From positions 3,162,001 to 3,226,000 of the forward strand of contig NC_008709.1 of the NCBI RefSeq assembly GCF_000015285.1: a DNA stretch of 64,000 bases, given 5' to 3'. The stretch comes from Psychromonas ingrahamii 37. GTDB lineage: Bacteria; Pseudomonadota; Gammaproteobacteria; Enterobacterales; Psychromonadaceae. A program made the position numbers and the translations under genes. Every line of letters starts with the position of its first letter. The first letter of the stretch is position 1. Below the pieces are notes generated by a model, which was not told where the DNA came from, ran no database searches, and saw only the letters and a program-made list of their open reading frames with translations. Positions 1 to 12,312 of the stretch are shown one piece after another.

Positions 1-50
1 CCATTACTCGCAAAACATGTGATTGTAATTAATAACAAGTAGGAAACATC

Positions 51-821
51 ATGGCTACAACAAGAATATCGTTCTTCTCACCTATCCGAATAACGACATT
101 AATTTTATTACTAGCATTTAGCGCTATCAGTTACGCAGCTGGCAACACCACCAAGGACTCGTTTTCAAAAGCCAAAAAGATGTTAGAAAAATCGGTTTAT
201 TTTGACCACCGTGAAACTATCTACTGCGCAGCTTCTTTTGACTCCAAAAAACAGATAACAGCACCCAATGGTTTTCATACATCAAAATACGTGAAACGTG
301 CTAAGAAATTGGAGTGGGAGCATGTCGTTCCGGCTGAAAACTTTGGACGTACATTTAAAGAGTGGCCAGAAGGTTCTCCACAATGTAGTAACAATAAAGG
401 TAAGTCATTCAAAGACCGCAGATGTGCTGAGAAAGTTAATGTTGAGTACCGGCATATGCAAGCGGATATGTTCAACTTGTACCCGGCCATTGGCGCTGTT
501 AAAGCACTCAGAAGTAATTACAATTTCACTATGCTACCTGAGGAGGCCAGTGATTTTGGCAGTTGTAAAATGAAAATAGACAATAGGAAAGCAGAGCCAC
601 CTGTAGAAGCTCGTGGCCGCATTGCTAGGACGTATCTTTATATGGATGAGACTTATTCCAGATATAGCATGAGCAAATCTCAGAAGCAGTTAATGAACGC
701 TTGGGATAAAATGTATCCTGTAAATGAATGGGAGTGTAAAAGAGCTAAGAAAATAACGAGTTTGCAAGGTGGAGATAATAACGTTGTAAAATTAAGATGT
801 ACGGATAAAGGGTTATGGTAA
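51..821 (+). CDS. endA: endonuclease I (EndA/Dns family), secreted nuclease
   Basis: A periplasmic or extracellular DNase/RNase of the endonuclease I family, 256 aa, close to the usual length. A signal peptide is visible at residues 1-29 (hydrophobic LILLLAFSAISYA, cleavage after SYA). The beta-beta-alpha metal motif is present as KLEWEHVVPAENFG near residues 86-99, followed by RHMQADMFNLYPAIGAVKA, typical of Vibrio Dns/Vvn. Conserved cysteines (YCAAS, QCSN, RRCAE, GSCKM, WECKR) suggest disulfides. AGGAAA lies 8 bases before the ATG. The family digests environmental DNA for nutrients. No operon partner is visible. Confidence 0.93.
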   Translation: MATTRISFFSPIRITTLILLLAFSAISYAAGNTTKDSFSKAKKMLEKSVYFDHRETIYCAASFDSKKQITAPNGFHTSKYVKRAKKLEWEHVVPAENFGRTFKEWPEGSPQCSNNKGKSFKDRRCAEKVNVEYRHMQADMFNLYPAIGAVKALRSNYNFTMLPEEASDFGSCKMKIDNRKAEPPVEARGRIARTYLYMDETYSRYSMSKSQKQLMNAWDKMYPVNEWECKRAKKITSLQGGDNNVVKLRCTDKGLW

Positions 822-925
822 TTACCGCTCAGCGCCAAAGAACTCGAATAATTAAAAAGTGATTATTAATTCTTATTCGGTGTGTACAAATCTTGAGGAA
901 AATATTTATTAGTTTACAAGGGGTA

Positions 926-1360
926 ATGGTGGGTTCAATGGAAAAACAATACGAGAATATCGACTTCCAGGGCAAGATGTTTGGATCTATATTAGTTATT
1001 GAACGCCCAATACTCATCGCCATTTAGTACCAGATAATTTTAATTGTTGGTTATGTATATGCAAATGTGGTGATCATCTTTTAGTTGAAAATAAGCAATT
1101 TATTAATCACATAAACCAGCCGATTCGCAGTTGCGGTTGCCATAGAAAAGATCACAATTCTCTTATCGGCAATCAATATGGTTATCAAACAGTATTATGT
1201 AAAACGTTAAATCAGGGGGAAAACTGTTAATCGTATTAAGTGATATATTGCGTATTTATGTTTATGCCGTTGTGGTAATAAACATATCGCAATTGGGCAG
1301 ACCTTGTCTAAGGGAAAGTTGAAACGTTGCGGTGGCCGCTTTAGGCACAAACCGACTTGA
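926..1360 (+). pseudogene. decayed gene with two tandem CxCG...CGC zinc-ribbon-like modules
   Basis: An ATG at 926, preceded by AAGGGG, opens a frame reading MEKQYENIDFQGKMFGSILVIER and then a stop. Shifting one frame continues as NCWLCICKCGDHLLV...IRSCGC. After a further shift at about 1253 it reads YLCLCRCGNKHIAIGQTLSK and ends KRCGG. Both halves follow the pattern G-x-x-(F/Y)G...W/Y-L-C-x-C-x-CG...CGC. That pattern is common in small phage and mobile-element proteins where a zinc ribbon follows a GxxxGxLTVIE strand. At least two frameshifts make it non-functional. Function unknown. Confidence 0.5.
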
Positions 1361-1694
1361 CACTTTTGCACTATTTTCCTGTTGATGTTATCCCAATTAC
1401 GCTCGCTTTCTCCCATTAGCGAGCCTGCGATTCATTTGCACCGCACAGCTTGGTTGTTGAGATTGTAGAATTACTCTCTTTTTATAAATTCCTGTATGTT
1501 TTTTACTTTTTAATCTATTGTTTTTAAAGCCTAGAACATTTCGTAAAAGAGTTCTTTTCTGAAAATGGATAAATTCTACAGCTTCGTTATGTTTCAGTAA
1601 TAGGTGAATTATCGCCAACAGAATGTTGCGTTCATATATGAAGAGAGGATTGTTAAAGGATTATCCACGCCTCACTTTAATAAAAGGGAAAAAG

Positions 1695-1823
1695 ATGAAA
1701 AAAGTAATTGCTGCAATAGCATTGAGCTTATTTGTATCTGGTGCTGCACTTGCCCACTCAGGCGGAACAGATGCTTATGGCTGCCATACAAATCATAAAA
1801 CGGGTGGTTATCACTGCCACTAA
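1695..1823 (+). CDS. small secreted YHYH-type protein
   Basis: A 42-residue protein with a clear signal peptide (MKKVIAAIALSLFVSGAALA) and a mature part of about 22 residues, HSGGTDAYGCHTNHKTGGYHCH. This is the short Cys/His motif annotated as a YHYH domain in many bacterial secreted proteins. The paired C/H residues suggest metal binding or a disulfide, but the role is unknown. The start at 1695 is chosen because AAAAGGGA lies just upstream and the signal peptide begins there. The stop codon lies at the foot of a long imperfect palindrome. Confidence 0.7.
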   Translation: MKKVIAAIALSLFVSGAALAHSGGTDAYGCHTNHKTGGYHCH

Positions 1824-1888
1824 AACAGAACCAGCCGATCCTGTACCTCCCTATGCGGTACAAGATCGGTTGGACTAATACGTTAGGC
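1816..1888 (+). repeat. long imperfect palindrome, attC-like
   Basis: The arms accagccgatcctgtacc (1830-1847) and ggtacaagatcggttgg (1857-1873) pair almost perfectly with G-T wobbles. The outer right end is GTTAGGC (1882-1888), which fits the GTTRRRY core of integron attC sites. The left outer end only partly matches its complement. The upstream gene's stop codon falls inside the left foot, as in gene cassettes. It could instead be a simple transcription hairpin, but no U-tract follows. No integrase of the integron type is in the window. Confidence 0.35.
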
Positions 1889-1915
1889 AGACAACATAGA
1901 TTAGGAATTATGATT

Positions 1916-2142
1916 ATGAAATTAACTACTCCTCACTTTTAAATATTATTGTTATTGCATCCTTATTTTTCACGGGGCACACCATTGCTGGTGATTACGA
2001 TGATTACTCAACGTCTGGAATCAATGAAGGTGCCATTGGCTCGGGCTATGATGATTACTCTACATCAGGAGTAAATGAGGGGTCGATCGGATCAGGATCC
2101 GATGATTACTCAAATCCAGGGGTTAATGAAGGTTCGTGGTAA
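1916..2142 (+). pseudogene. frameshifted small secreted protein with three DDYS repeats
   Basis: The frame from ATG 1916 stops at once (MKLTTPHF-stop). Moving one frame at the TTTT run at 1937-1940 gives a continuous reading: a hydrophobic stretch LNIIVIASLFFTG, a signal-type end TIAG, then three repeats (DYDDYSTSGINEGAIGSG, YDDYSTSGVNEGSIGSG, SDDYSNPGVNEGSW). The repeats are about 17 aa, acidic, Tyr/Ser/Gly-rich and well conserved, so the coding frame was real until recently. A one-base loss in the T run explains the break. A sequencing error or phase variation are alternatives. Function unknown. Confidence 0.5.
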
Positions 2143-2279
2143 TAGGAAAATTGCCTAACAAACGGCTGCACCGGAAAAATTTCCACTCTCACCTTTTTTG
2201 CATAAAAGCACGCAAAAAAGCCGCCATCAAAAATTTTATCGGTGAGACGGGCTTTATGTGTAAAAAAGGAGATCGCATC

Positions 2280-2549
2280 ATGAAATTTAGAAAACTAATT
2301 CTTATTGCCTTATTTGCTATTCCTGCTGTTTCATTTGCTTGGGATGGTTACGACTATGAGTCTGGAAACTATGTAGAAATTGACAAGGGCAACTTGGTCA
2401 GAGAAGGTGAAGAAATTGAGTACTACGATTACGGCAGTGGCGAATATCGTTACGGTGAAGTTCAAGATGTTCAAAGTTCAGGAAGTGGCGCAGAAGTCGA
2501 GATATATGATTATGACTCTGGCGAATACCGCACATTCGAAATGGATTAA
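2280..2549 (+). CDS. small secreted protein resembling DUF5334
   Basis: An 89-residue protein with a signal peptide (MKFRKLILIALFAIPAVSFA) and an acidic mature region beginning WDGYDYESGNYVEI. Repeated YDYGSGEYRYG and YDYDSGEYRTF motifs and the phrase KGNLVREGEEIEYYDY recall proteins annotated DUF5334 in Vibrio and enterobacteria. AAAGGAG lies 7 bases before ATG 2280, which decides this start over an upstream in-frame one. Its repeats resemble in style those of the broken gene just upstream (acidic Tyr/Asp/Ser/Gly). Role unknown; probably periplasmic or exported. Confidence 0.65.
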   Translation: MKFRKLILIALFAIPAVSFAWDGYDYESGNYVEIDKGNLVREGEEIEYYDYGSGEYRYGEVQDVQSSGSGAEVEIYDYDSGEYRTFEMD

Positions 2550-2609
2550 ACATATAACAAGTGCAGGCAAGGAAGGCTCCTGACGTCGCGGCCCTACTGC
2601 AAGCTGTTT

Positions 2610-3091
2610 GCTATCAGCACGATTCAAAAACTTTATGCGATAGAAAAGCGCACCAAGTTATGACCCGCCAAGGAACGCCAGAGAATAAGGAAAATCGAGT
2701 CTGTCCCTATTTTAGATAAATTCAAAATATGGCTAGATAAAACCTCACAAACCCTACTACCCAAAAGCTACTTGGGTACCGCAGTATCGTACATGTTGAA
2801 TTATTGGCAAGCGTTAACACGCTATGTTGAAAACGGTGAATTGAGCATTGATAATAATGTTACTGACCGGGATATCCGGCCCTTTACGACGGGGAGAAAA
2901 ACTGGATGTTTGCACAATCAGTAAAAGGGGCCCAAGCCAGTGCGGTGCTTTACAGTATTGTGATGACCTGCCGAGCCAATGATATTAACCCTTATTTTTA
3001 TTTCCAGAAGCTGTTCGAAGAATTACCTAATCGTGTAGAAGGTGCCGATTTAAGCGATTTATTACCGTGGCATGCTCAGTTCAAGCCTTGA
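2610..3091 (+). pseudogene. IS66-family transposase (TnpC) C-terminal remnant
   Basis: The translation LYAIEKR...ESVPILDKFKIWLDKT, LPKSYLGTAVSYMLNYWQAL and IDNNVTDRDIRPF, then MFAQSVKGAQASAVLYSIV and PYFYFQKLFEELPN, follows the C-terminal part of IS66 DDE transposases. An in-frame TGA interrupts the start, after RTKL. A one-base deletion in the GRKNW motif near 2900 shifts the frame. The N-terminal two thirds and the tnpA/tnpB genes are absent. It is a dead fragment and marks past IS activity beside the trio element. Confidence 0.85.
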
Positions 3092-3131
3092 TTTAGCTGA
3101 GTACACTGCTTAACTGCGCGCTTACTTTGCT

Positions 3132-3165
3132 ATGGACTTAAGCCAATAAAAAACATTAAGTCCAT
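3132..3165. repeat. perfect 10-bp inverted repeat
   Basis: ATGGACTTAA (3132-3141) and TTAAGTCCAT (3156-3165) are separated by 14 AT-rich bases. It lies about 50 bases beyond the end of the gmtX-like gene and just after the IS66 remnant. It could be a rho-independent-like terminator for the minus-strand trio operon or an element-end feature. The sequence alone does not decide. Confidence 0.5.
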
Positions 3166-3213
3166 GAACTTTTTCATGTGCAAGACTTTAGTTCACCAAG
3201 GAGGCGCATTAGG

Positions 3214-3816
3214 CTATATCAGATGTGCCTTTGTGTTTTTAAGGTACCACTCGAAGAATTCAGGACAATCTTCTTTTGTAAATAATGTTTTTGGAATTAT
3301 AGATGCTGTATCAATAACAACATCTTCTGTTATTTTGATTGAGTCCATACCAAGAGTATTTAATAGCTTCATAATAATTGAGAATGCACTACTATCATCT
3401 ATCACAGGCTCTTTTTGTGTTCTAATGCGTATGTTTTTATCTTCCAGTAGGCTTACCTCAGATAGTTGCTTTGAAAGTTCTTGTTCTAGTGTTGCCACTT
3501 GCTTTTTTAATAGCCTTACTGATGAGCGTTCTATCATTAGCTCTTGCCTAACAGATGAATCTTTTACAACAGCTCCTTTATCGAGAAATCCATCAACCAG
3601 TCTCCTGTAATCCTTGTTTGTTCTTAACGTGGTTGACACGATATTTTCATTAAACTCTGATTTTATATGCTCAGATAGCCGCTCTGAAAATGGGGTTATT
3701 CTTTCACCTCGATGTTTTTTAATAGTCTTTAGGGCCTTTTTGATAATTTCAACCCTGTCGTCCACGAGTTGTGCTTTTGACATTTTAAGATAATCACCTC
3801 GTTTTTCTATTTTCAT
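3214..3816 (-). CDS. gmtX: GmtX-like third protein of a Gamma-Mobile-Trio element
   Basis: A 200-residue, highly charged protein. A probable coiled coil spans about residues 93-128 (ELMIERSSVRLLKKQVATLE, KQLSEVSLLEDKNIRI). The N-terminal part resembles the small proteins that accompany site-specific recombinase pairs or trios. GGAGGG lies well placed before the ATG at 3816. It is the last gene of a three-gene unit, 11 bases after the stop of the 1099-aa protein. Assignment to GmtX rests on position and size rather than on a recognised domain; molecular role unknown, presumably needed for excision or integration. Confidence 0.6.
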   Translation of the reverse strand: MKIEKRGDYLKMSKAQLVDDRVEIIKKALKTIKKHRGERITPFSERLSEHIKSEFNENIVSTTLRTNKDYRRLVDGFLDKGAVVKDSSVRQELMIERSSVRLLKKQVATLEQELSKQLSEVSLLEDKNIRIRTQKEPVIDDSSAFSIIMKLLNTLGMDSIKITEDVVIDTASIIPKTLFTKEDCPEFFEWYLKNTKAHLI

Positions 3817-3827
3817 GATTTACCCTC

Positions 3828-6800
3828 CTACTCAAAAAGTTCTAGTCCGATTTTGTCTTCTGTTATTCTGGTATTTTCCATTAATTCCAAAACAGTTTTT
3901 CCTTCAAGTTCAGCTAGCATTTCTAGGTTTTTTAGTGTGTATTTTATGGGATTTAGTTCCAGTCCATGCTCAAGGTCGTCAATGGATATGTCCATCTTTG
4001 ACATATTTGTCATGAGCCGTCTGGAAAGGCGAGAAGCCATTTGTATGAGTAGGTTGCTTTGTAGCATGGGAGAACCATCAACTTCTTTCAATCTAGCTAG
4101 CAGCCGAGCCTTAATGGAATTTGGTATAACCTCTTTAAATTGATGATTAGGATCTCCTGTAATATCCATATTTCTTAAAAAATCCGTCCTAACTTTCCAT
4201 GCACTTGCCCGCTTCGCTTTCTGGAGGATTTCATGCTGTATAAAAACTAAATCACTGCTTAAAATACCATCTCGTTTGATTTTTATATAGAGCTCTTTTA
4301 TTTCATCAACTATCATTCTGATTGTTGCAGCAATAGCTGGTCTGTGTTTTTTTACTACGATGGCCTTGTAGCATACGTGACAGTTCTTTTCTCCAATTTC
4401 CCTTACAATTGCTGAGGGACAGATGTTATTGTATGGGCATATATGAGTAGGGTTCAATGCTATCTCATTCACGGAAATATTCTCAATCTCCTCTATGCCA
4501 GACGTTTGCCCGCTTGGTGCAAAGTTGGATATACCGCCAAATTGTTTACTAAATGTTTTTTCAACGACTGATTTAGCAATTTCATCAAAGCTAATTGATG
4601 TGTCTTTTACTGAGATTACATTAACACCAAGATCAGCCCGTTGTTTGTCTGTTATTTCTCTTATTGCAAGTTCTTGCTCTGGAGTGTTCGTTGTGTAATA
4701 AGCTTGAGTTTCGTCAGATTGACCAGTGAACATTTTAGTAATTGCTTTGTCATCGGTTAGCACACTGAATATGCTTACCAGTTCGGTTCTTAGCGCATGA
4801 ATAGTATGTGCTGACTTAATGGCTATAGGGGTAAAGCTAACAGCTTCTTCGCCGGGGGCGTTAATTATTTTATATGTCGCATGCCTTGGTGTGCGATTAA
4901 GCCTCTTGTAATAAAGAAAATCAATACCAGGTGTTTTCAGAGGTGCGTAAAAGTTTGTGCTCTCAAACTCCAGATCGGAATCAGTTAAACAGGCTTCAAA
5001 CTGCTGTAAAGGCATACTAAGGTTGTAGACTATATCTGAGTTTGTTTCTGTTGTTTGTAACAATGGCTTTATTATGCCAAACTCACTATTGGGGTTGTTT
5101 TGATAGAATACCCCCTCAGTGAATGAAGTGTGGGTGTTAAAGTTTCGGATTTTTCTTACAAGCCTAAGCAAATTAAAGACTTCATATGGTACATTGCTCT
5201 CCATTCCACCACTATTTACTTTATCAGTATTTATATAAAGAGGCACGAGTCCTTCTGTGGTTTTTCCGTCGTAAATCGCGTCAAATGAATCTGTATCGAG
5301 CCACATTCCGTTAGATGCTCTTTGCCCTGCGTAACAAGCCAAGAGTACATTGAACTGTCTTTGATAATCCAAATGCTTGATGGGGAACTTACGATTGCCA
5401 AGCCAAGAGCTTCTTTGTGTAAAGGAGCCATAGTCTAACTTTTTAATTTTAAGTATGTTTCCATCAAATAGATCTATTTCCCGATCCACGTAAATACATT
5501 TTTCTTTCTCGTTATATTCTACCTCTGAAACCTTAATGCCCGTAAATTCTTCTACCTCTTTCCGTACAGCCACTGCTTGGCTTAATAGGTATGGTTCACT
5601 AGCATCTCTAAAAAAAAACTCTATTTTATTGCATGTATCAAGTAGCATAATTTTACAGACTTCTTTTGTGAAAAGTCTGTATCTAATCCAATAGTTCACA
5701 TCGAACCTTTGTTTTACTGAACCTTTCAAGGCTGTTCCAATGTTAGAGTTTTTCTCGATGGGGTTTGCTTTTATATTGAAGCCTTTTAACGAACTGAAAC
5801 TTGCAGTGATGTAGTCAAAATATCTGTGAATAGTACCGATGATATCTCTGTGTAAATTATTGTTTTCTGTTACATCGTTTTTTTTATAATTGCTGACTTT
5901 AGCAATAAAATCATGAATACTCATTGGGTAGATTTTTTCTAATTCCTTAGCATTAATGCTGCTGTCAACTACAGTAGAGAACTCTACAAACACATACTTA
6001 TGAAATTCTTCTGGGGTGGATGGGAATTTAAAACATGTTTCGGGATGCTTATAAAAGAAGGCGGGGAGATAACCAAATAAATATGCATTAAAGTAAGCTA
6101 ATTTACTCTTCAATGACTTTTTTGTATTTGCCTCAAATTTCTTTTGGTGTAAAAAATCATTTTGACTCAAAAGCCACTTATTGTTTTGATCTTCTGGAGT
6201 GAAATTATTTAGTGAAGTTACATCAATCTTAATGCCTGAAAAATCTACATTCGTTGGTTTAACAGTAAATATAAGTACCTTGGCTTGGTCATTAATTAAA
6301 AGGCCTGCGATATTCTTTGCGGATTGAAATTGCTCCATTCTGTAATTTAAATGGAGTTCATCCTTGACATGCTTCACACCTACACCAATACCCATATTTT
6401 CATATGATTCTTTGATATATTCATCCTGCAAATCTGTATTATAATACTCATCGAAGTACCCCAAAATCGGCTTAAGTGACAGGTTGCCTTGCGACGATTT
6501 AATTATTTCAATACGATGCGCATTTAAGTGCTTTACGTTAATATCTTTAATATCATCTATGCCAAATCGAATTAAATACGCAGCAAAATTAAGACATGTT
6601 TTATTAAACGTTTTATATTTTCGGTTGTCATGGATAGGGTCAACTAAATCAATTAGCTCTTTGCTTTTTTCATATCTAGCTTTTGTGGATATATTAATTA
6701 TGTCCATAGCTATTTTAGGTAGGCAAAAACTAAAAAGGGTTGTATATATTTGATGGGGGTTGTTGGTGAATACATCGCCTAATCGAGCATGAATGGGAAG

Positions 6801-7127
6801 CTCTATAATCTTTTTCTTTGCTGCATTTGCGTATAAGCAAAAAATTACATTGCATAATTTAGTATATGCTCCCTTTGAATTTCTAGGTATATCAAATGGA
6901 AATATTTCTCGAACGTCATTTTCCTCCAATGCATTGGTGTTATATTTCCCGGACAATAATTGTAGCGTTGTATCGAAAAATTCTTTATCAAACTCCTGGA
7001 TAGAAAAAAGCTCATAAGCGAAATAAGCAATTAAATCGTTCTTGCTGCATTTCCCTTTTTTATCTACAACTACTTTTAAATCCTCTCTAAAAGAATTGCT
7101 CAGAGCAATATAGGTACTAGCGTCCAT
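3828..7127 (-). CDS. gmtZ: GmtZ-like large integrase-associated protein (VPA1269 family)
   Basis: A 1099-residue cytosolic protein with no membrane segments. Residues about 893-922 carry two close cysteine pairs (HICPYNNIC and CHVC), probably a zinc site, followed by a basic helical C-terminus. Its size, its overlap of 11 bases with the upstream tyrosine recombinase and the small gene after it match the Gamma-Mobile-Trio (GMT) gene order Y-Z-X described in Vibrio and other gammaproteobacteria. In that system all three are thought to mobilise islands carrying defence and toxin cargo. GGGAGA precedes the ATG. The family name is recalled from gene order, not from an alignment. Confidence 0.65.
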   Translation of the reverse strand: MDASTYIALSNSFREDLKVVVDKKGKCSKNDLIAYFAYELFSIQEFDKEFFDTTLQLLSGKYNTNALEENDVREIFPFDIPRNSKGAYTKLCNVIFCLYANAAKKKIIELPIHARLGDVFTNNPHQIYTTLFSFCLPKIAMDIINISTKARYEKSKELIDLVDPIHDNRKYKTFNKTCLNFAAYLIRFGIDDIKDINVKHLNAHRIEIIKSSQGNLSLKPILGYFDEYYNTDLQDEYIKESYENMGIGVGVKHVKDELHLNYRMEQFQSAKNIAGLLINDQAKVLIFTVKPTNVDFSGIKIDVTSLNNFTPEDQNNKWLLSQNDFLHQKKFEANTKKSLKSKLAYFNAYLFGYLPAFFYKHPETCFKFPSTPEEFHKYVFVEFSTVVDSSINAKELEKIYPMSIHDFIAKVSNYKKNDVTENNNLHRDIIGTIHRYFDYITASFSSLKGFNIKANPIEKNSNIGTALKGSVKQRFDVNYWIRYRLFTKEVCKIMLLDTCNKIEFFFRDASEPYLLSQAVAVRKEVEEFTGIKVSEVEYNEKEKCIYVDREIDLFDGNILKIKKLDYGSFTQRSSWLGNRKFPIKHLDYQRQFNVLLACYAGQRASNGMWLDTDSFDAIYDGKTTEGLVPLYINTDKVNSGGMESNVPYEVFNLLRLVRKIRNFNTHTSFTEGVFYQNNPNSEFGIIKPLLQTTETNSDIVYNLSMPLQQFEACLTDSDLEFESTNFYAPLKTPGIDFLYYKRLNRTPRHATYKIINAPGEEAVSFTPIAIKSAHTIHALRTELVSIFSVLTDDKAITKMFTGQSDETQAYYTTNTPEQELAIREITDKQRADLGVNVISVKDTSISFDEIAKSVVEKTFSKQFGGISNFAPSGQTSGIEEIENISVNEIALNPTHICPYNNICPSAIVREIGEKNCHVCYKAIVVKKHRPAIAATIRMIVDEIKELYIKIKRDGILSSDLVFIQHEILQKAKRASAWKVRTDFLRNMDITGDPNHQFKEVIPNSIKARLLARLKEVDGSPMLQSNLLIQMASRLSRRLMTNMSKMDISIDDLEHGLELNPIKYTLKNLEMLAELEGKTVLELMENTRITEDKIGLELFE

Positions 7128-8529
7128 AATTCAATTCTCCCTTTATTCGTTTAACTTGTTGATCAATGTTTCGGTGAACGAGTCCCTTTAAATTATTGTT
7201 ATTGCATTCCAAAATCCCATTAGCGACTTCCATTGCGGCTCTAATTATAAAGCTACTTTTAACCGCATATTTTCTGGTTGTTTTTTCACTTGCATGACCC
7301 ATCATTGTATTTACTGTGCCGATCGAAAGACCGAAAGAATTTCCAACTGGGATAAAATTAAGGCACCACACACCATAAAAGTGTCTGAGTGAGTGTAATG
7401 TGTATATTTTTTTTAGTTTGAGTTCTTTTTGGAGGGCTTTAAAGCTGCTTGCTACACTCTGCGAGGGCTTGAAGATAGGATCCCCATGGTTATTATTTGA
7501 ATTGGATACGAATAAGACCTCATGCGTTACATTAATGCGTTCTAAGGATAAGTAATTACATAAATTATCAAAAAAAATACTTCGGAATGGTTCGATAAAA
7601 TAGACTTCTGACGTATCTCGGCCTTTAAACTCAAGTTTGTTTCTTTGTTCCTGTGAAAACACCGAAAAATGGGACTTTCTGTGTGTTGGATCTATAATTC
7701 TAACCGTTTCATTTTCTATATCAACATCTTGCAACAATACTTGGGAACCTTCAGACCCCCTTATTCCCGTCCCAGCGAGTAATGACCAGAAGCATTTGTC
7801 TCTATAGGTCTTGGCGTTCTCAATAAGATCTAAAATGTGTTCAAAGGGGAAAGCTTTATGTACAAGAGATCCATCTGTATCAGAGTTGTTTCTCAACTTC
7901 TTTGAGAAGAAAATCTTGTCGTTAGTATACTTTGCTCCACCTTTGATGACGTTCGAAATTACGCTGTTTCTGCTAATGCCTTGGATTTCATTATCAGTAA
8001 GCTTTCTTCTTTTCAATACATTATTAAATAGAACGACTTCTTCTAGTGATAGGTCTAGATTAACTAAGCCTTGTTCCTTAAAGTTCAATAGTTCATTTTG
8101 AAGACTTGCAGAATGTGTTATGAAAGTAGTCACACTGGACAAATGGCGGGTTACACTGGCAGGTTTAATAGCTCTAGAATTTAGTTTGTTGGCTGCATAT
8201 TTTGCTAAAACATAATCACTATCAACACCGTTAAGTAAGTAATCTGGATACTGAATTATTATCTCTTTTAGTGGCGTGGTTAATCTTATTTCTGTAAGTA
8301 GTCGATTTATATCTTCTAAATCATCAAACGCGGACAAATACTCAAAGAGCCTCTTTAGATCTTGGGCATAAGCGTTAATTGTTGATTGGCTACTTCCCTT
8401 ATTGATTTCCATTTCTAAGAAGTCACTATATTCTTTTATTTTTCCTGCTGCGCTACTCAAAAGAGCATAGGAATACTTGCCAGTTCTTGATGAATAGCGG
8501 ATTTTATTGAAGGAGATTTTATTGTACAC
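7117..8529 (-). CDS. gmtY: tyrosine recombinase (GmtY-like)
   Basis: A 470-residue tyrosine recombinase. A SAM-like N-terminal DNA-binding region spans roughly residues 30-150. The catalytic domain shows R257 (TGIRGSEG), H379-x-x-R382 (LHSLRHFYG), H412 (MMGHAS) and the nucleophile Y421 (TTRKYAV), so all catalytic residues are present. The start is GTG 8529 with GAG nearby. It leads the trio operon and overlaps the large gene by 11 bases. Some 150 bases upstream lies an intact tRNA-Arg gene, the usual sort of target for this enzyme class. Confidence 0.85.
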   Translation of the reverse strand: MYNKISFNKIRYSSRTGKYSYALLSSAAGKIKEYSDFLEMEINKGSSQSTINAYAQDLKRLFEYLSAFDDLEDINRLLTEIRLTTPLKEIIIQYPDYLLNGVDSDYVLAKYAANKLNSRAIKPASVTRHLSSVTTFITHSASLQNELLNFKEQGLVNLDLSLEEVVLFNNVLKRRKLTDNEIQGISRNSVISNVIKGGAKYTNDKIFFSKKLRNNSDTDGSLVHKAFPFEHILDLIENAKTYRDKCFWSLLAGTGIRGSEGSQVLLQDVDIENETVRIIDPTHRKSHFSVFSQEQRNKLEFKGRDTSEVYFIEPFRSIFFDNLCNYLSLERINVTHEVLFVSNSNNNHGDPIFKPSQSVASSFKALQKELKLKKIYTLHSLRHFYGVWCLNFIPVGNSFGLSIGTVNTMMGHASEKTTRKYAVKSSFIIRAAMEVANGILECNNNNLKGLVHRNIDQQVKRIKGELNYGR

Positions 8530-8569
8530 TTTTTCTCAACCCTTAAATTTCGATATTTAAGTGTACTAT
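8521..8569. promoter_or_regulatory. inverted repeat flanking the recombinase start
   Basis: ATTGTACACTT (8521-8531) and AAGTGTACTAT (8559-8569) are inverted copies matching at 10 of 11 positions, with 27 bases between. One arm covers the GTG start codon region of the recombinase. Such an arrangement could be an operator for autoregulation or recombinase arm-binding sites. Confidence 0.35.
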
Positions 8570-8610
8570 AGTTTATAATAAAATGTTAATCAACAGATTT
8601 TAAAACAGGC

Positions 8611-8644
8611 AAAAAAAAAGCACCTCTCCAGAGATGGAGGGTGC
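8611..8644 (-). terminator. terminator after tRNA-Arg
   Basis: On the minus strand a stem GCACCCTCC / GGAG(A)GGTGC with a short loop is followed by nine U residues. It sits 38 bases beyond the tRNA-Arg 3' end and before the recombinase start, so the tRNA and the element are separate transcription units. Confidence 0.85.
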
Positions 8645-8681
8645 TATATTTGATGTAAGTTATTGATTTTAAATATATATG

Positions 8682-8758
8682 TGGTGTCCCGTTCGGGATT
8701 TGAACCCAAAACCTACGCCTTAGAAGGGCGTTGCTCTATCCAATTGAGCTAACAGGAC
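8682..8758 (-). tRNA. tRNA-Arg(TCT)
   Basis: A 77-nt cloverleaf on the minus strand with encoded CCA. Acceptor GTCCTGT pairs with ACGGGAC. The D arm is GCTC/GAGC. The anticodon arm ACGCC-CTTCTAA-GGCGT gives anticodon TCT. The T arm TTGGG-TTCAAAT-CCCGA is complete. All four stems form, so it should be functional. It reads AGA/AGG-type arginine codons. It lies directly beside the trio mobile element. Confidence 0.95.
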
Positions 8759-8841
8759 GCAAGAGTTTACATGACCATTTCGTTTGATTTTTCAAACCAG
8801 TCTGCAATATTTTATTGTGAGTTTTATCAAGTCTAATATAA

Positions 8842-9156
8842 GAACCTGCGACCCTCCGCTTCGTCACACTATAACTTTCGCTACCATCCCAGAGGACTTT
8901 GTGCGCTGGAATACCCCTTTACCATAGTAACCCATAAGGAAATCATAAGATTTTATACTTTAGGTAGATGCCGTCTACTCTCTACACCTTCCCAAAATAC
9001 ATTGGGCTTGGCTCGGGATTGCCAACCAAAATGGTAAGGTTTCCCCGAATTTGACATCTTACACTCAAAAGGTTTCCCAAATGAGGCCCAATTATGAAAT
9101 GATTTCACACTTCGGCATTAGAAGGCGGATGCTCTATCCAACTGAGCTAACAGAAC
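8842..9156 (-). pseudogene. tRNA-Arg(TCT) copy split by an intron and truncated at its 3' end
   Basis: The 5' exon (9156-9120, minus strand) reads acceptor GTTCTGT, a D arm and TCCGC-CTTCT. The 3' exon (8861-8842) reads AA-GCGGA-GGGTC-GCAGG-TTC. Joined, they make a perfect anticodon arm with anticodon TCT. After the T-loop TTC the sequence becomes unrelated, so the 3' T stem, acceptor and CCA are missing and no mature tRNA can form. The break lies in the T-loop, a place often used by integrases. The second, intact tRNA-Arg lies just downstream. Confidence 0.8.
8862..9119 (-). ncRNA. group I self-splicing intron (Azoarcus-like, IC3 type) in tRNA-Arg anticodon loop
   Basis: This 258-nt insert lies between anticodon position 36 and position 37. 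On the minus strand it carries the core blocks of the Azoarcus tRNA-Ile intron as I remember it: GATGTCAAATTCGGGGAAACC, GGCAATCCCGAGCCAAGC, GAAGGTGTAGAGAGTAGACG, GCATCTACCTAA, and TATGGTAAAGGGGTATTCCA. P3 (GATGTC with GACGGCATC) and P4 (TTCGGG with CCCGAG) keep pairing through paired changes. The preceding exon base is U and the last intron base is G, as group I splicing needs. Bases GGG just before P2 could pair with exon UCU as a 3-bp P1. It encodes no protein. Confidence 0.85.
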
Positions 9157-9226
9157 TAAATTTTCATAACTACAGGCTACATATTTATCATATACTACCT
9201 GTGCTTTGAAATTTAATACCAAATAA

Positions 9227-9280
9227 GAACCGGTTGCCTGCGGCTTATATGCCGTTGCTCTATCTCGCTGAGCTAAGGAC
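9227..9280 (-). pseudogene. tRNA fossil truncated in the T-loop
   Basis: On the minus strand GTCCTTAGCTCAGCGAGAT gives an acceptor 5' strand and D arm. A damaged anticodon arm (ACGGC-ATATAA-GCCGC) follows, and then CCGGTTC. The sequence then leaves tRNA similarity with TTAT, the same GGTTCTTAT junction as in the intron-bearing copy. The amino acid identity cannot be fixed. Confidence 0.6.
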
Positions 9281-9322: not shown

Positions 9323-9399
9323 TGGTCGGTGATAAAGGATTCGAACCTTTGACCCCCTGGTCCCAAACCAGGTGCGCTACCAAGCTGCGCTAATCACCG
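9323..9399 (-). tRNA. tRNA-Pro(TGG), copy 1
   Basis: A 77-nt minus-strand cloverleaf with encoded CCA. Acceptor CGGTGAT pairs with ATCACCG, and the anticodon stem CCTGG encloses a loop with TGG. The T arm AAAGG-TTCGAAT-CCTTT is complete. It is identical in body to the copy at 12236-12312. No terminator of the usual kind follows at once, unlike the other copy. Confidence 0.95.
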
Positions 9400-11668: not shown

Positions 11669-12170
11669 GGGCAAACTAATCTCTTTAATAAACGCGACTA
11701 AGCGACGCTAACTACCTCGAAGGTTCCTAGAAAGCAAAAAGCCCGTAACACCTTTAAATGTTACGGGCTTTTCTAAATGTGGTCGGTGATAAACGGAGCG
11801 AGTTGAGCGACAGCTCAGTGTACGAGCAAACTAATTATTTTGACCCAACTCTTTATAAGCGCGACTAAGCTGCGATAACCACCTCAGAGGTCCGTAGAAA
11901 GCAAAAAGCCCGTAGCACTTTTAAATGTTACGGGCTTTTCTAAATGTGGTCGGTGATAAACGGAGCCCATTGAGCGACAGCTCAGTGTACGAGCAAACTA
12001 ATTATTTTGACCCAACTCTTTATAAGCGCGACTAAGCTGCGCTAACTACCTCAGAGGTCCGTAGAAAGCAAAAAGCCCGTAACACTTTTAAATGTTACGG
12101 GCTTTTCTAAATGTGGTCGGTGATAAACGGAGCCCATTGAGCGACAGCTCAGTGTATGGGCAAACTAATT
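11669..12170. repeat. three tandem 167-bp units, each a terminator plus a decayed tRNA-Pro
   Basis: Units begin at 11669 (155 bp, shortened), 11824 and 11991, with a partial start at 12158. The last two match almost exactly. Each holds the hairpin AAAAGCCCGTAACA...TGTTACGGGCTTTT with A and T flanks, so it can stop transcription in both directions. Each also holds, on the minus strand, TTAGCGCAGCTTAGTCGCGC and TTTATCACCGACCA. These are a decayed tRNA-Pro 5' part and its exact 3' end with CCA. The array starts 7 bases after the RNase stop codon and runs up to the second intact tRNA-Pro. Confidence 0.85.
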
Positions 12171-12200
12171 ATTCTGACCCGTTGCCAAAAATAATAGACG

Positions 12201-12235: not shown

Positions 12236-12312
12236 TGGTCGGTGATAAAGGATTCGAACCTTTGACCCCCTGGTCCCAAACCAGGTGCGCTACCAAGCTG
12301 CGCTAATCACCG
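12236..12312 (-). tRNA. tRNA-Pro(TGG), copy 2
   Basis: The same 77-nt sequence as the copy at 9323-9399, with a complete cloverleaf, anticodon TGG and encoded CCA. A strong terminator follows. With copy 1 it brackets the RNase gene and the array of decayed copies. Confidence 0.95.

Follow-up and report, generated by a model that had tools for sequence, protein, structure and literature searches.

How small endonuclease-less tRNA introns pass from species to species is an old question, and lateral transfer has reportedly been inferred for the tRNA introns of cyanobacteria. The Azoarcus pre-tRNA-Ile(CAU) intron is a group I intron with an IC3 structure. The intron analysed here, from a 64,000-nucleotide stretch of the Psychromonas ingrahamii 37 genome (the window), resembles it in being small and ORF-less, in lying after anticodon base 36 and in its core, and betaproteobacterial CAT relatives were matched by the same model. 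It differs from the Azoarcus intron in its longer P1 loop and in its host, a tRNA-Arg(TCT) that appears to be a replacement copy and is now split. The existence of the Azoarcus intron is cited in PMC3984707 and PMC4033280; the latter, a 2014 review, in the part available names cyanobacteria and the alpha- and betaproteobacteria as bacterial hosts of tRNA introns. In Beggiatoaceae, a putative group I intron has been reported within a tRNA-Arg(TCT) of gammaproteobacterial origin (PMC4853749). That gene is alike in host, a likeness drawn by description alone, and differs in that the accessible description, which gives neither the insertion position nor the type of the intron, involves no mobile element. 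The mere presence of an intron in such a gammaproteobacterial gene is thus not new, and the same report rules out the extension of range that the first-pass annotation of the window had seen in a TCT host in Gammaproteobacteria. According to the available text of PMC8450103, tRNAscan-SE 2.0 is not designed for detecting bacterial tRNA introns.

Phages of the Rhizobium vTRX32-1 group integrate in a tRNA gene and carry a whole replacement tRNA (PMC8631192), as do the elements described below. The phage tRNA is a tRNA-Leu without an att motif, and the accessible part of that report mentions no intron, whereas a replacement of the type in the window can carry an intron and can be cut again. Tycheposons are islands bordered by a tRNA gene and equipped with a XerD-like tyrosine recombinase (PMC10872708). 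Their likeness to the tRNA-bordered island with a tyrosine recombinase found here is by description alone, and no intron appears in the portion of the description available. The words 'integrative' and 'genomic island' are absent from the accessible text of PMC3984707, and the open-access literature, judged mostly by titles, yielded nothing on introns in replacement tRNAs.

The insert in the window is 258 nt long and lies directly after anticodon base 36 of the tRNA-Arg(TCT), flanked in the anticodon loop by CTTCT on the 5' side and AAGCG on the 3' side (Table 1). With an E-value threshold, RF00028 matched 8915-9106 on the minus strand (model positions 1-253, 49.5 bits, E 1.8e-11), although at the gathering threshold the intron goes unreported, its score being half a bit below the gathering score of 50. 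Across the 4.56-Mb genome it is the top match, the runner-up reaching 14.5 bits (E 0.76). We then considered a structure of 58 pairs (P2 to P9, with P7 as a pseudoknot) on six aligned introns, in which 97.7% of the cells pair. Double-sided changes were found in 16 pairs, against a shuffled mean of 7.1, and none of 500 shuffles reached 16; slid versions of the structure gave 1-3, a comparison in which the counted structure has an advantage because it was partly taken from the same alignment. The weaker signal of further pair types (22) was matched by 20 of the 500 shuffles. The RNAalifold pairs 29-34/214-219 and 138-143/147-152 are incompatible with P1, P6 or P7 and were for that reason kept out of the count; pairs 77/105, 90/95, 232/237 and 242/255 were also excluded.

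P3, P4, P7 and P8 each contain a double-changed pair, while the two-pair P6 is invariant and P6a variable. One P7 pair is G-U in the two Psychromonas introns and C-G in the other four of the six, a double-sided change. The sequence TTGGGCC is identical across all six introns, the exon-final TCT faces GGG, and the intron-terminal G is present. The insert is a genuine group I intron, which we class as IC3-like by the resemblance of its core and position to tRNA introns and which is predicted to be self-splicing. The first-pass annotation had placed a group I intron of this length after base 36, with these P3 and P4 strands, a P7 pair changed to G-U and a P1 between exon UCU and intron GGG. The RF00028 match and the six-intron covariation bear out this identification; P3 and P7 both pair in the structure, and the P1 pairing can be read directly from the sequence.

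Table 1 Features at the intron-bearing tRNA-Arg(TCT) locus, in window coordinates.
Feature	Position	Strand	Basis or remark
Element 2, left-end part	1..8841	-	whole element ~48.3 kb, genome 3122535-3170841; both junctions and empty site in MB-3u-54
200-aa protein, gene 3 of trio	3214..3816	-	similar-size gene at the same place in six relatives
1099-aa protein, gene 2 of trio	3828..7127	-	relatives beside recombinases
Tyrosine recombinase, 470 aa	7117..8529	-	PF00589, E 2.9e-15; adjoins the element-borne tRNA
Terminator-like hairpin behind the element-borne tRNA	8621..8636	-	consensus match only
Element-borne intron-free tRNA-Arg(TCT)	8682..8758	-	intact
3' exon of the intron-bearing tRNA, up to T-loop cut GGTTC^TTAT	8842..8861	-	remaining tRNA from genome 3122535 downwards
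Group I intron, 258 nt	8862..9119	-	RF00028, boundaries, covariation on six introns; last base G at 8862
P7 5' strand GAGAGTA, one bulged A	8976..8982	-	partner TATTCC at 8908-8913
P4 5' strand TTCGGG	9044..9049	-	partner CCCGAG at 9012-9017; paired in 6/6; one pair double-changed
P3 5' strand GATGTC	9053..9058	-	partner GGCATC at 8967-8972; all six pairs paired in 6/6; one pair double-changed
Guide sequence TTGGG	9087..9091	-	GGG can pair with exon TCT (P1), TT with 3'-exon AA (P10); read from sequence
Intron-bearing tRNA-Arg(TCT), 5' exon (37 nt; anticodon TCT at its 3' end)	9120..9156	-	ARAGORN calls the unbroken counterpart in G021 (MB-3u-54)
~70 bp between remnant cut and intron-bearing tRNA	9157..9226	-	putative left end of lost element 1, from position and TTAT terminus
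Decayed 5' part of the apparent original tRNA-Arg(TCT)	9227..9280	-	cut at GGTTC^TTAT; matches positions 4-57 of the G022 tRNA-Arg(TCT)
tRNA-Pro(TGG)	9323..9399	-	upstream neighbour in ancestral tRNA cluster; order as in G022

The search of other genomes for an intact intron-bearing tRNA-Arg(TCT), proposed in the first-pass annotation, found the same gene unbroken in Psychromonas sp. MB-3u-54 (G021), 97% identical and with an intron of 260 nt. When the window's genome was searched with this locus, the 5' half and intron were found at 3170842-3171165, and the 3' half, together with tRNA-His and tRNA-Leu, at 3122073-3122540. The 3' end that had been thought lost is therefore present 48.3 kb away. 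The gene had been read as a fossil; that it is broken stands, and the simple truncation with a missing 3' end is ruled out, since a 48.3-kb element (element 2) split it. The junctions of element 2 read GCAGGTTC/TTATATTAG and AATATAAAGGTTC/AAGTCC (slashes mark the joins) and are flanked by 7-bp inverted arms. Element 2 bears the marks of a tRNA-replacing element: two junctions sharing the core AGGTTC, an unbroken site in the relative MB-3u-54, and a complete tRNA of equal specificity on the element itself. Judged from these sequences, the window tRNA is split by the integrated element 2, with the cut in the T-loop, and the element would presumably be capable of excision.

That the window intron is now a dead relic, its splicing lost, is a possibility that we take seriously without favouring it. 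The split tRNA cannot be completed, and P7 has its G-U pair and P1 two wobble pairs. However, the P7 change is common to the MB-3u-54 copy, whose tRNA gene is complete, and in a model built from the introns the window intron scores 161.0 bits and the MB-3u-54 copy 153.2, both being members of that model. The tRNA-Arg(TCT) on element 2 is the sole TCT gene among the 80 tRNAs called in the genome, in a survey whose stretches cover 79 of the 83 Rfam tRNA matches, the remaining four scoring the same as an Ile/Ala pair. Because element 2 supplies this intron-free gene, the strain would need no splicing to read AGA.

The recombinase of element 2 is followed by a gene for a 1099-aa protein and one for a 200-aa protein. 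The 1099-aa protein had no matches in Pfam, PADLOC or NCBIfam, and in a protein database it found only itself among 7997 scored candidates. Among 393 other genomes of the order, six encode a relative, and in every case its neighbour is a recombinase of 473-480 aa; in a class-wide sample, one of these relatives used as the query found its own genome only (1/369). Similarity to the 200-aa protein was detectable in two of the six trio relatives. A separate search of phage and plasmid collections gave no record covering 80% of its query. The Gamma-Mobile-Trio likewise has a large gene and then a smaller one behind a tyrosine recombinase, with defence genes in its cargo. It is alike in this gene order and in its defence-gene cargo, but the window recombinase lies far under the GmtY cut-off: membership is ruled out by scores of 37.6 bits in the window and 32.1, 68.1 and 34.6 in three relatives, against an NCBIfam cut-off of 340. 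Outside the window, element 2 contains a Gabija-like gene pair (GajA 689.6 bits, GajB 444.7 bits) and a TerD-domain gene, both within the entry L047:15550-18364 and L048:16953-17528, as well as a second, short tyrosine recombinase (L048:7646-8242, 198 aa, PF00589).

A second broken tRNA lies upstream of the intron-bearing gene, with TTAT directly after GGTTC. This remnant aligns with the intact tRNA-Arg(TCT) of Psychromonas G022 to position 57 with a score of 59, against 31 for the next tRNA, which rules out a tRNA-Ile(TAT). Its counterpart in MB-3u-54 is also best with tRNA-Arg(TCT) (71 versus 45). The G022 locus has the order Pro(TGG)-Arg(TCT)-His-Leu without the intron, which was found in only 2 of 24 Psychromonas genomes (P. 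ingrahamii included), both with the remnant. Because the TCT remnant is cut at GGTTC^TTAT and the order in G022 is intron-free, it appears that the original tRNA-Arg(TCT) was the first to be broken, in a common ancestor of the two strains, and that the intron-bearing gene took its place. A second tRNA-Pro(TGG) was observed at 12236-12312, near a 167-bp unit present three times in tandem (11681-12180) and overlapping a tRNA-Pro-like sequence.

We consider it likely that an integrative element brought in the intron inside a complete tRNA-Arg(TCT) gene, and that this tRNA was replaced twice in succession. An element of this type would cut the T-loop of the resident tRNA gene at GGTTC^TTAT, presumably by means of its tyrosine recombinase, and would supply a full-length and presumably working replacement tRNA, which lies ~50-140 bp in from the left end of the element and has the recombinase gene downstream of it. 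A putative element 1 would have broken the original tRNA-Arg(TCT) in the ancestor shared with MB-3u-54 and left the intron-bearing replacement, the remainder of the element having since been lost. Element 2 (48.3 kb) would then have cut that replacement in the window's strain and brought the intron-free tRNA-Arg(TCT). Counting against replacement, no trace of element 1 was found beyond its supposed left end in either the window or MB-3u-54. The idea that an intron shields a replacement tRNA against a second insertion is unsupported, the intron-bearing copy having been cut.

The same layout was found in other genera. Three genomes (G138, G201 and G289) have a host tRNA-Arg(CCT) with a cut at GGTTC^TTAT; ~50 bp further on stands a tRNA-Arg(CCT) that lacks an intron, and after it a recombinase. 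A group I intron is carried by the tRNA-Arg(TCT) beside the recombinase in V. renipiscarius (G168) and G360, and by the tRNA(CAT) beside the recombinase in G378. Enterovibrio and the Vibrio genome G832 show the same TCT arrangement, so that in Enterovibrio and in three Vibrio genomes (G168, G360 and G832) the order is cut host tRNA-Arg(TCT), intron-bearing tRNA-Arg(TCT) and related recombinase. All four of these Vibrionaceae carry the intron in the copy on the element and lack it in the cut host copy. The right end, with the host 3' half, was located in G360, whose arms are identical over 15 bp, G168 and G138; such ends were also looked for in G378, G201 and G289 and not found, and their recovery in only three of the six other trio genomes counts against the replacement view. 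The four right ends found (L271, L272, L275 and L277) have CACT-type repeats just inside the element. An unusual T-loop, ATCGTGC (GGATC, not GGTTC), is present in the element-borne tRNA-Arg(CCT) at L213, L215 and L216 and might shield this tRNA against the element's own recombinase.

In genome contigs, a pattern scan detected at least 120 loci, and at 108 of these ARAGORN in intron mode called an intron-bearing tRNA. These calls included 50 Leu-TAA, 18 Met-CAT and 11 Arg-TCT, some of them misnaming the tRNA (L068, called Arg-TCT, reads as tRNA-Leu). Introns after base 36 of a TCT tRNA-Arg were present at no fewer than 11 loci in Psychromonas, Vibrio, Enterovibrio and Colwellia; hosts among the loci scanned include MB-3u-54, Enterovibrio norvegicus FF-33, Vibrio renipiscarius, V. 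pectenicida, V. hepatarius and two Colwellia. At L231 and L301, an intron-bearing tRNA(CAT), which by its sequence we take to be probably Ile2 as in Azoarcus, lies beside a host copy cut at CAGTTC^TTATTAGGGG. Group I intron matches were also observed in phages. One lies in Klebsiella phage Muenster between annotated tRNA-Ser and tRNA-Asn (L034:2092-2340, 104.1 bits) and is absent from the annotated features listed, and two lie beside or within annotated capsid genes of an uncultured marine phage (L036:1450-1630 and 2159-2339, 78 and 76.9 bits).

For an association test, we searched the 400 bp upstream of each of 23 intron-bearing tRNAs for another copy of its 5' half, with 100 shuffles each. 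Of the 23, 19 came from the genomes of the order in which a match had been obtained, and the others from Enterovibrio, two Colwellia and a single one (G586) of the further class-level genomes; G043 entered with a partial match and an odd anticodon call. A broken upstream copy beat all shuffles for 15 of the 23, compared with 1 of 28 intron-free tRNA-Arg(TCT) genes (Fisher p 1.9e-6), the p value serving as a guide only because the test genomes are related and the controls were chosen by similarity; upstream intact tRNAs were masked in the controls only, and the printed segments of the 23 are broken copies by eye. The single control exceeding its shuffles was marginal (20 versus 19). Eight of the 15 are cut at GTTC^TTAT. 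The other seven are broken near the anticodon stem with an ACCCCC/GTTACC scar and were therefore not made by the T-loop-cutting type of element, which counts against that type as the general cause. This second scar was observed upstream of the intron-bearing tRNA at L125, L140, L224, L229, L230, L299 and L300, in the order host tRNA-Arg broken near the anticodon stem, ACCCCC with several GTTACC repeats, and intron-bearing tRNA-Arg. Also counting against replacement, no broken upstream copy was detected by the test for 8 of the 23 (G859, G862, G821, G143, G130, G083, G041 and G586). In G859 a decayed remnant behind the host promoter is visible by eye. In V. pectenicida (G862; L129/L295) and V. 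hepatarius (G821; L135/L296) the intron-bearing gene stands directly behind the host promoter and is scar-free, perhaps a settled end state.

Because of the 15 of 23 against 1 of 28 and the same layout in other genera, the introns seem to ride on tRNA-replacing elements. Of 394 genomes, 12 have the intron and 7 the 1099-aa protein; four have both (p 1.7e-5), and three of these four belong to a single genus. The introns might instead have reached the resident tRNA-Arg(TCT) by ordinary intron mobility and been inherited since, the gene being a frequent integration site and the nearby broken copies coincidental. This would fit the eight genes that lack a broken upstream copy, two of them directly behind the host promoter, and the finding of introns after base 36 in many bacteria, but we regard it as improbable given the excess of broken copies over controls, the restriction of the intron within the genus to two genomes that both have the remnant, and the four Vibrionaceae with the intron in the element's copy and none in the cut host copy. 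That the window remnant is an old tandem duplicate decayed by itself, with only element 2 real, would account for an otherwise traceless element 1, but it is hardly likely for a sequence that resembles the tRNA as far as position 57 and breaks off at GGTTC^TTAT, when the same cut and next four bases recur in eight other tRNAs (the window's second cut, Enterovibrio, G168, G360, G832, G138, G201 and G289).

We constructed a tree from 83 core matches from 82 sources. The window intron groups with those of MB-3u-54 and of Enterovibrio and Vibrio (support 0.968), in a tree many of whose other branches are weakly supported. A long branch sets the G378 tRNA(CAT) intron well apart, so introns may have entered these elements on more than one occasion. 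An intron match was found in 61 of 369 genomes of the class, which would presumably include betaproteobacteria if the class follows GTDB. G378 has an intron-free tRNA-Arg(TCT) elsewhere in its genome. In G168, the intron-bearing gene is probably the only TCT tRNA, because every full-length similarity match examined was CCG or ACG. Where the intron-bearing gene stands alone, reading AGA should need splicing.

In replacement as we propose it, the whole intron-bearing gene looks like cargo, carried by an element that itself disables the resident gene, so that the host would have to keep the intron and splice it. We give about even weight to the broader proposal that tRNA-replacing elements are the main vehicle for endonuclease-less tRNA group I introns in marine Gammaproteobacteria, knocking out the resident isoacceptor and leaving a copy whose splicing is essential, with at least two kinds of element involved (the T-loop cutters and the ACCCCC/GTTACC kind). 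This cargo route is directly testable. The locus in P. ingrahamii would represent one tRNA replaced twice in a row, and the sole TCT tRNA found there now sits inside a mobile island with a Gabija-like gene pair. Such double replacement suggests how tRNA introns may travel between species.
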